Positions 5,922 through 8,967 of a stretch of 50,006 nucleotides of DNA are shown here, in pieces. The notes beneath the pieces were generated by a model. It ran no database searches. It saw only the letters and a list, made by a program, of their open reading frames with translations, and had not been told where the DNA came from. Location of the stretch: NCBI GenBank assembly GCA_013298775.1, contig JAAFIV010000032.1, positions 1 through 50,006 on the forward strand. Reading direction: 5' to 3'. The stretch comes from Ignavibacteria bacterium. Its GTDB lineage: Bacteria; Bacteroidota; Ignavibacteria; Kapaibacteriales; UBA4661. Made by a program: the position numbers and the translations under genes. The first letter of the stretch is position 1. The number at the start of each line of letters is the position of its first letter.

Positions 5922-5957
5922 TTTTTTGATTGCCCTTTTTCTTTGCATATTTTTTAT

Positions 5958-6803
5958 ATGAAATCATATCCTTTACAACAGCTCCACAAGCAAGTACGTA
6001 AGCCACATTCAGCTCAATCAGCGTCAGCAAAACATACTTCCCTCAAGCCAGAGATATTGTTTGAAGATGAGCATATCGTGGTTCTTTCCAAACCAGCAGG
6101 ACTTTTGTCGCTTCCAGACCGCTTCGATACTACTCTTCCGAACCTTCGCACGATGATGGTGGAAAAATACGGCGAGATTTTTATTGTGCATCGGATTGAC
6201 CGCGACACAAGCGGCATTATGATGGTCTGCAAGACCGCAGAGGCGCATAAAATCTTGAGCGAGCAGTTTGAAACCCGCGAAGTGCGGAAGATATATCATG
6301 CCGTGGTGCAAGGGCGCGTTGAGCAGGAAGAAATGGCGATAGATATTCCGCTCCAAGCAGACCCGCAGCGTCCCGGGCTGATGTCGCCGTCGGTGCGTGG
6401 GAAGGAATCACTCACGCAGGTACGAGTGCTGAAGCGGTTTCGTCTGGCAACCTTGCTGGAATGCGAGTTGATAACGGGTCGGCAGCACCAAATCCGCGTC
6501 CACTGCGCGGCGATTGGTCATCCGCTTTTGATTGATGCAGATTACAGCGAGAATACCGAGTTTATGCTCTCAAGCGTAAAGCGAAAATATAACGTGGGAA
6601 AACATCAGGAAGAAAAGCCGCTTATGAGCCGCACAACGCTCCACGCCTCGCGTTTGGAGTTTCGGCATCCTGCCACGCACGAAACCATGAGCTTTGAAAA
6701 TCCCTACCCAAAAGATTTTAAGGCACTCTTGCAAACATTAGAAAAATACTCGCCCTATCGCACCACCACGCTGCAAACTACGTCGTGGGAAGAATTTTTG
6801 TGA
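5958..6803 (+). CDS. RluA-family RNA pseudouridine synthase
   Basis: Isomerises uridine to pseudouridine in rRNA or tRNA. The key motif HRIDRDTSGIMM carries the catalytic aspartate (HRxDRDTSG). The later motif TGRQHQIRVH is also typical of RluA. An N-terminal segment of about 35 basic residues precedes FEDEHIVVLSKPAGLL, the normal start of the catalytic fold; there is no S4 domain. Start set at ATG 5958 rather than an upstream TTG. The exact target (RluA, RluC or RluD type) cannot be told from sequence alone. Its stop codon lies 40 bases before the mobile element at 6844. Confidence 0.92.
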   Translation: MKSYPLQQLHKQVRKPHSAQSASAKHTSLKPEILFEDEHIVVLSKPAGLLSLPDRFDTTLPNLRTMMVEKYGEIFIVHRIDRDTSGIMMVCKTAEAHKILSEQFETREVRKIYHAVVQGRVEQEEMAIDIPLQADPQRPGLMSPSVRGKESLTQVRVLKRFRLATLLECELITGRQHQIRVHCAAIGHPLLIDADYSENTEFMLSSVKRKYNVGKHQEEKPLMSRTTLHASRLEFRHPATHETMSFENPYPKDFKALLQTLEKYSPYRTTTLQTTSWEEFL

Positions 6804-6843
6804 ACGTATTTATGAGAATTTTCATAAATACTTTGCTCTATTC

Positions 6844-7025
6844 TTGAAGTTTAGATAAAATTCTGCAACCCTCATAAAACCTTGCGTCCACGATTACCCT
6901 CACCCAACCCTCTCCCAGAGGGAGAGGGCTTCAGAAGCGTTTGATTTTCTTTGTTTTAGCTCCTTCTCCCTCTGGGAGAAGGCGGGGGATGAGGGCAAAA
7001 GCGCATGATTTTATCTAAACTTCAA
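6844..7025. mobile_element. 182-bp MITE-like element with 18-bp terminal inverted repeats and 7-bp target duplication (family E core)
   Basis: The ends are perfect inverted repeats, TTGAAGTTTAGATAAAAT at 6844-6861 and its complement at 7008-7025. They are flanked by a perfect direct duplication TCTATTC at 6837-6843 and 7026-7032. The right-hand duplication contains the ruvX stop codon (complement at 7027-7029). The interior (about 6897-6997) is a second palindrome with CCCTCACCC, CCCTCTCCC and GGGAGAGGG blocks, shared with 8812-8902 and with the addA coding region near 29500. There is no coding capacity, so mobilisation in trans is inferred. Confidence 0.8.
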
Positions 7026-7026
7026 T

Positions 7027-7530
7027 CTATTCCAATTCCCGCAGAAATTCCCGCAAAATAATGGCTGCGGCGAGTTCGTCGGCATGACCTTTTGTTTGCC
7101 GATAGCGTTTTTTCTTGCCGCTTGCAATCATGCTCTGACGCGCTTCGCGGCTGGAATATGCCTCGTCAATCACCAGGACAGGCACGGCACTCGCACTTTG
7201 TAAATCCGTAATAAATCGTGCTATTTCCTGCATCATCGGTGTAACGCCGTCGTCGTGCTGAAGCGGCATCCCGACAAGGATTGCGCCGCATCGCTCGCTT
7301 TGGCACGCACGAAGAATTTCCTCAATCAACGTCGGCGAATTGTGAAAAATGCCACGCGGCGAAGCCAGAATATGTAGCTCATCGGCAACAGCAAATCCGA
7401 CGCGCTTTTTACCGTAATCCACTGCCGCAATGCGCTTTCCTGCAAGCATGGAGCGTAGTTCTGGTGTGATGCGCGTGAGGGTAGGAATGGTGGGGCTTTC
7501 AGAAGATTCTGGATTCATATTTTTTCTCAA
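7027..7530 (-). CDS. ruvX: Putative pre-16S rRNA nuclease / Holliday junction resolvase, YqgF/RuvX family
   Basis: RNase H-fold nuclease of the YqgF family, linked to 16S rRNA 5' end maturation and proposed as a resolvase. Of 167 residues, the N-terminal ~28 form a Ser/Pro/Thr-rich extension; the fold starts at KRIAAVDYGKKRVGFAVAD, whose aspartate is the first catalytic residue. ILVGMPLQHDD follows, then VIDEAYSS and the C-terminal HADELAAAIIL acidic motifs. The first ATG (7530) is used; an in-frame ATG at 7518 would also serve. It is the last gene of a likely unit regulator-MazG-ruvX, and its stop codon lies inside the target duplication of the adjacent mobile element. Confidence 0.88.
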   Translation of the reverse strand: MRKNMNPESSESPTIPTLTRITPELRSMLAGKRIAAVDYGKKRVGFAVADELHILASPRGIFHNSPTLIEEILRACQSERCGAILVGMPLQHDDGVTPMMQEIARFITDLQSASAVPVLVIDEAYSSREARQSMIASGKKKRYRQTKGHADELAAAIILREFLRELE

Positions 7531-8648: not shown

Positions 8649-8967
8649 TCACAAACAAAGTGGAAAAAACAGCAAGCACAAAATTAGAGCTTTTCACGGG
8701 AAATACAAGAAATAAAAAATGGCGCAGAACCTTGATTCTACGCCATTGTTTCTCAACATTTTCCTGCGAAAATTTGTGTATTCATTCATCTTACGCACAC
8801 ACCCCTCACCCAACCCTCTCCCAGAGGGAGAGGGCTTCAGACCTAGTTTTCATCAACCCTCGCCCTCTGGGAGAGGGTCTCGCGCAGCGAGGGGTGAGGG
8901 CAAATGTGAGGGTATGCGTAGGGTGAGTTATTCATACTTCAGCCCTCATATTTCATCCTTATCTTCC
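8649..8967. other. Gene-free stretch holding a family E palindrome
   Basis: Between the response regulator start and the M3 peptidase stop. Most of it is the inverted repeat listed at 8777-8937. The rest is AT-rich, and 8941-8962 contains AGCCCTCATATTTCATCCTT, nearly repeated at 17083-17104. A promoter for the regulator should lie just above 8640 but no clear box was seen. Confidence 0.6.
8777..8937. repeat. Family E palindromic repeat, copy 2
   Basis: The core (8812-8902) has CCCCTCACCC and CCCTCTCCCAGAGGGAGAGGG on the left, CCCTCTGGGAGAGGG in the middle and GGGGTGAGGG on the right, pairing as nested stems. It matches the interior of the 6844 element. Its flanks form a further imperfect inverted repeat (GTATTCATTCATCTTACGC near 8779 against GCGTAGGGTGAGTTATTCATAC near 8916), different from the 18-bp ends at 6844, so the same core occurs with different outer arms. 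Confidence 0.75.

Follow-up and report, generated by a model that had tools for sequence, protein, structure and literature searches.

In a published review (PMC10969869), bacterial MITEs are short, non-coding elements with inverted ends and target duplications, which are present in many copies and apparently depend on the transposase of a larger element. The BoxC/PIT/TMECO motif, with the consensus CCCTCNCCCN3-6GGGNGAGGGN3GGGNGAGGG (PMC4666352), consists of a C-stem, a loop and two G-stems and occurs as an inverted-tandem pair at five sites in E. coli K-12; according to that report, the motif is not associated with transposons and its surroundings hold no remnants of transposases. The proteins covered by the NCBIfam model NF041680 are entered at NCBI as putative transposases only, and a literature search for NF041680 returned no paper.

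The window, that is, the whole stretch of 50,006 nucleotides that was analyzed (Ignavibacteria bacterium, contig JAAFIV010000032.1), contains a 182-bp element next to ruvX that shares the listed properties of bacterial MITEs but has its own end sequence and a BoxC-type core that is common to other end types. In the reading that we hold with good confidence, an NF041680-type DDE transposase acting in trans inserted this element, and the core travelled as its passenger. The transposase would have come from an insertion sequence whose ~16-bp ends are the same, and the insertion would have taken place where a pseudouridine synthase gene and ruvX converge with their 3′-ends, through a 7-bp staggered cut, the filling-in of which would have duplicated the target and thereby kept the ruvX stop codon. 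The passenger between the ends would be a double hairpin of the BoxC/PIT/TMECO type, which is also carried inside other end sets of this genome. What is new here is the likely partner family and, more so, the apparent role of the BoxC-type motif as a passenger of several kinds of transposon end. Two BoxC-type copies are shown by duplications together with empty sites to be insertions, and for one of them a likely enzyme family can be named, so that the spread of the motif becomes directly testable.

An insertion between two convergent genes

The element occupies positions 6844–7025 and lies between two convergent gene ends, because the RNA pseudouridine synthase gene (5943–6803, plus strand; PF00849, E = 1.3e-32) stops at 6803 and ruvX (7027–7530; PF03652, E = 9.4e-31) is located on the minus strand, with its stop codon TAG at 7027–7029. 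It is bounded by perfect 18-bp terminal inverted repeats, namely TTGAAGTTTAGATAAAAT at 6844–6861 on the plus strand and its exact reverse complement at 7008–7025 (minus strand), and is flanked by TCTATTC at 6837–6843 and 7026–7032. A sequence-only reading of this DNA had proposed these ends and flanks and had placed the ruvX stop codon within the right duplication; both statements are exact in coordinates and letters, and the element-free relative described below has the same ruvX end. The element encodes no open reading frame of at least 60 amino acids and thus, as a MITE, carries no transposase gene; the absence of a mobilizing enzyme from the window, also part of that reading, was confirmed. 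A search of the window against Rfam yielded no family reaching its gathering score.

Within the element, the minus strand at 6897–6928 reads CCCTCTCCCTCTGGGAGAGGGTTGGGTGAGGG, which has the BoxC/PIT/TMECO layout with a second loop of two bases instead of three, and a second, inverted stem-loop (CCTTCTCCC..GGGAGAAGG..GATGAGGG; inverted repeat I1) lies at 6962–6996 on the plus strand. The published 3-base second loop, absent from the window copy, is present in other copies of the genome, for example at C1:162558–162590. By its sequence, the core can be assigned to the BoxC/PIT/TMECO motif as a close variant, with the same C-stem, loop and two G-stems and the same inverted-tandem arrangement as the E. 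coli pairs. The sequence-only reading had described a palindromic core resembling a generic intergenic repeat; the palindrome stands, and the term “generic” is refined to this BoxC/PIT/TMECO variant, which also occurs inside other ends.

The genome of origin is a draft assembly of 5.19 Mb in 95 contigs. A search for the 18-mer end with up to two mismatches produced 72 matches (37 + 35) and none for the same pattern read backwards, indicating that the ends are not a product of chance, and a BLAST search with the element yielded 62 matches. Among the loci examined, 35 distinct copies with paired ends were recognized, comprising 18 of 170–174 bp, 13 with the 182-bp length of the ruvX element and four long ones of 369–438 bp; two further pairs of element length (208 and 310 bp) were excluded as chance pairings with poor ends. 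Perfect duplications flank 26 of the 35 (12 of 6 bp, nine of 5 bp, four of 7 bp and one of 9 bp), and the remaining nine have no exact duplication of at least 3 bp, some of them being near-matches by eye. When flanks were mispaired, duplications of at least 5 bp arose in ~0.24% of trials for the 35 copies and in 1.1% for the 26 copies with a strict core. The search for further copies proposed in advance therefore returned many, with flanking duplications of their own; the 7-bp duplication stated earlier holds at ruvX but is not a fixed length, since 5 and 6 bp are more common across the genome. End pairs up to 2.5 kb apart at these own-genome loci consisted of the 170–438-bp copies and some poor-ended pairs attributed to chance, and included no autonomous element. 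The joined site is spanned by an open reading frame of at least 100 amino acids in 11 of the 26 copies with duplications; this uncontrolled count was not used as evidence on the avoidance of genes. The four long copies (L088, L089, L102 and L103) have cores with additional hairpins, and exact 6-bp duplications flank two of them (L102 and L103).

The closest relative found, G005, whose ruvX is 96% identical over residues 5–167, lacks the element. Its locus (...GATGCTTTGCCCTATTCCAATTCCC) has the same ruvX end and a single target copy, CCTATTC, in place of the TCTATTC of the window; the sequence that separates the pseudouridine synthase stop from the target has diverged and is ~12 bp shorter, and only its last bases before the target align, by eye. 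An empty site in a relative had been named beforehand as the decisive check on transposition, and this site, together with the many copies bearing their own duplications, upholds that explanation. The element beside ruvX is a genuine MITE whose insertion history can be read from the two genomes. Other copies exist elsewhere in G005 and also in G009, a member of another genus of the family, in which the best are 82–83% identical. The element matched 16 of the 61 genomes searched, many of the matches being confined to the core, and duplications also flank copies in G005, G002, G009 and G007.

BoxC-type cores inside other transposon ends

The core pattern, with a second loop of 2–4 bases, matched the own genome 125 times, and the reversed control did not match at all. 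The contexts of 107 of the 125 matches were examined, and 74 of them lie between recognizable transposon ends of four sets, here designated families A to D. The ends of the ruvX element (family A) enclose 26 of these cores. Family C ends (CTCACCTTACGCA) enclose 39, 22 of which have a 7-bp duplication when a one-base slip of the end is allowed, compared with 0.1% for at least 7 bp in the mispaired control. Family D ends (GCAGGGCTGTTAAGTTC) enclose seven; four of these have duplications of 9 bp with the ends as written and of 11 bp with the slip, against a control value of 4.5%, which is high because some of the flanks resemble one another. Family B ends (GAGTGTGCAA..TTTTGTGTA) enclose two, with duplications of 8 and 10 bp.

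A family C copy with the same kind of core is the second MITE of the window (8786–8928). It is flanked by TATTCAT at 8779–8785 and 8929–8935, a duplication scored automatically as 5 bp and read by eye as 7 bp, and its site is empty in G005, where TCTTCAT is found. For one family D copy, only a single flank was matched in G005, and for one family B copy only the core. In the own genome, four family D loci (L228, L275, L276 and L281) combine the GCAGGGCTGTTAAGTTC ends with 9-bp duplications and a BoxC-type core. Contigs C52 and C25 overlap by 126 bp, at the end of the former (L105) and the start of the latter (L099); if the two adjoin, a family D copy flanked on either side by TTTGGGAGA apparently interrupts a family A copy.

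Rule-based classification divided the cores into subtypes that cut across the ends: alpha was found within families A (nine) and B (two), gamma within A (14) and D (two), and beta within C (36) and D (five), with three A and three C cores left out by the rules. From this table, we infer that cores have moved between end types. Among the matches listed in our searches of the literature, open-licence papers on BoxC-type motifs and MITEs made no link between the two, and those on the end motif and the MITEs of this group did not describe a BoxC-type core common to several end types.

The wider pattern allows two accounts. BoxC-type cores may spread by a mechanism of their own and have been captured independently by several MITEs, so that transposition would not be their usual route, an account to which we assign slightly less than an even chance. 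It is favored by the 33 of 107 contexts in which no ends were recognized, a number in which three elements appear twice, once for each strand, and at least two (L024 and L099) are truncated by contig ends: 31 of the 33 have enough flank for a test, and no duplication of at least 6 bp was found among these, with 1.2 expected from the control. Similarly, the three E. coli K-12 BoxC pairs examined, out of five tandem pairs in the published table, all lack such ends and duplications, and they speak against a general rule that BoxC motifs reside inside transposon ends. On the other hand, 74 of the 107 contexts do lie between recognizable ends, the edges of the two insertions with empty sites fall at the transposon ends and not at the core, and the bare cores could derive from old elements whose ends were lost. 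The real bare cores and the bare E. coli pairs are therefore either decayed MITEs or the mark of another way of spreading. As the second account, we tentatively consider that the BoxC double hairpin is an exchangeable passenger of unrelated end sets served by different transposases, which it would switch by recombination in the core, and that its wide presence in bacteria would be the outcome of transposition and later loss of the ends, not of selection for triplex DNA; we regard this full version as possible, at clearly less than an even chance.

A candidate transposase of the NF041680 kind

The sequence-only reading had also suggested looking for a transposase gene with the same ends, and the outcome differs between genomes: broken NF041680-type genes with such ends occur in relatives, but the own draft assembly, in which the NF041680 profile has no match at E = 1e-3, contains only a 46-bp remnant of a related element (C15:36258–36303, 89% identical). 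No transposase was thus found in the host itself, although one may lie in an assembly gap. Among 123 genomes of the order, six have NF041680 matches, none of them above the cut-off. In G001, end motifs at contig edges pointed to longer elements with different interiors. On contig C269 of G002, where the left end alone is present, TTGAAGTTTAGATAAA is followed by a broken gene with a match to PF13546 (DDE_5) that exceeds the gathering score (E = 6.8e-9) and one to NF041680 that falls below the curated cut-off (E = 2.1e-36). In G009, a 1558-bp element (C275:239–1796) has both ends (TTGAAGTTTAGACAAA and TTGAAGTTTATATCAA) around a broken gene and no exact flanking duplication. In G007, one side is represented by two ends, and an open C-terminal half lies on other contigs; G001 has three contig-edge pieces with one end and four with the other; in several of the edge pieces of these two genomes, MITE-type ends stand beside NF041680/DDE_5 coding sequence. 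The ends of the ruvX element are therefore common to transposase-encoding elements in these four relatives, with genes that are broken in G002 and G009 and divided among contig edges in G001 and G007; no intact transposase gene was found between such ends. A scan of named genomes identified three loci with elements of this kind: JALONG010000063.1 (Candidatus Kapaibacterium sp. Prado071; G007 C65), JANYIG010000175.1 (Candidatus Kapaibacterium sp.; G009 C275) and JAAFHM010000028.1 (Ignavibacteria bacterium; G002 C269). The 48 pattern matches in viral contigs included none encoding a relative of the transposase C-terminus. In G001, a 257-bp element with TTGAAGTTTAGATAAA ends and an unrelated interior occupies positions 293–549 of contig C405 (L119); its right end coincides with that of the contig, and a BoxC-type core is absent by the strict pattern.

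The comparison was extended to 20 NF041680-type elements from named plasmids; their annotations read NF041680, IS4, “transposase” or hypothetical, or are absent. The ends of these elements were sought as inverted repeats around the gene without use of the present motif, in a ranking that added the length of the exact duplication and is thus biased towards ends with duplications; a Rippkaea element (L201) was excluded from the set, since the sequence around it makes up a single long inverted repeat. In nine of the 20, the ends correspond to YTGRAGTTTAGAY or vary closely from it, and an exact duplication of 6–7 bp is present: 7 bp in Allocoleopsis, Nostoc C052 (in simple sequence), Nostoc NIES-3756, N. 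carneum and Nostoc ATCC 53789 pNsp_b, and 6 bp in Acaryochloris, Nostoc CENA543, Cyanobacterium HL-69 and Ca. Chlorohelix. Five others (Brasilonema, two Calothrix, Nodularia and Aulosira) have related ends without an exact duplication, and the Deinococcus and Nocardia elements have a 5-bp duplication and different ends, a longer end without duplication being possible there. Ends were resolved for these 16 of the 20 elements, the other four being those of Streptomyces, whose ends differ from the YTGRAGTTTAGAY type, Gloeothece, Nostoc UHCC 0926 and Nostoc ATCC 53789 pNsp_e. When one end of each element was compared with the MITE end over 16 bases, the number identical was 15 in Ca. Chlorohelix, 13 in Acaryochloris, 10–12 in the other cyanobacteria and 5–6 in Deinococcus and Nocardia. 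The Allocoleopsis protein scores 594.3 bits against NF041680 and that of Ca. Chlorohelix 426.8 bits, below the cut-off of 440; the Kapaibacterium proteins, whose halves are 25–27% identical to the latter, also remain below the curated cut-off. The Allocoleopsis franciscana element (L200, plasmid pMIC7113.03), with its 7-bp duplication, is situated between cas4/cas1 and cas6, which are CRISPR genes.

The YTGRAGTTTAGAY end motif of the resolved cyanobacterial and Chloroflexota members, which goes together with 6–7-bp duplications, relates them to the MITE, which differs from them in lacking a transposase gene; duplications are 5–7 bp and once 9 bp for the MITE and 6–7 bp for the nine plasmid elements with the motif, and none is readable for the autonomous Kapaibacterium elements. 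NF041680 proteins can in this way be linked to a conserved end motif and to a duplication length. From the common ends and the duplication length, we infer that an NF041680 transposase probably acts on the ends of the ruvX element.

It is improbable that the MITE was instead moved by another transposase recognizing similar ends, for example of the IS701 or IS4 groups. In favor of such an origin, no intact partner was found in its own assembly, and the NF041680 proteins themselves score weakly, below the cut-offs, against the IS701 and IS4 profiles; however, the elements of G002 and G009 with these ends have NF041680-type sequence between or adjoining them, and unrelated NF041680 elements have a related end motif and a similar duplication length. 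IS701 elements generate 4-bp target duplications, in contrast to the 5–7 bp, and one of 9 bp, found here, and a derivative of the IS701 family was rejected on this point. REP elements, moved by RAYT (IS200-type) transposases, consist of a short palindrome and are not known to have a target duplication; an element of this type is ruled out by the long inverted ends and the duplications. ISDol1 was considered for its duplication length and set aside, as the one paper found to name it is silent on the point, and no ISfinder family is claimed for the element.

That the feature is simply a BoxC-like hairpin serving the host as a bidirectional terminator between convergent genes, its end symmetry having arisen for folding, is very improbable: the predicted fold of the minus-strand RNA is very strong (z −10.8) and the position between convergent genes is suitable, but as a full account it is contradicted by the empty site and by the scattered copies that bear duplications of their own. 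Under the preferred reading, that of a transposed MITE with a BoxC-type passenger, the hairpin may nevertheless end transcription of both neighbors after insertion. Previous studies cited in PMC4666352 found BoxC/PIT elements to be without terminator activity, whereas a terminator role is presumed for a similar repeat in PMC2869309.
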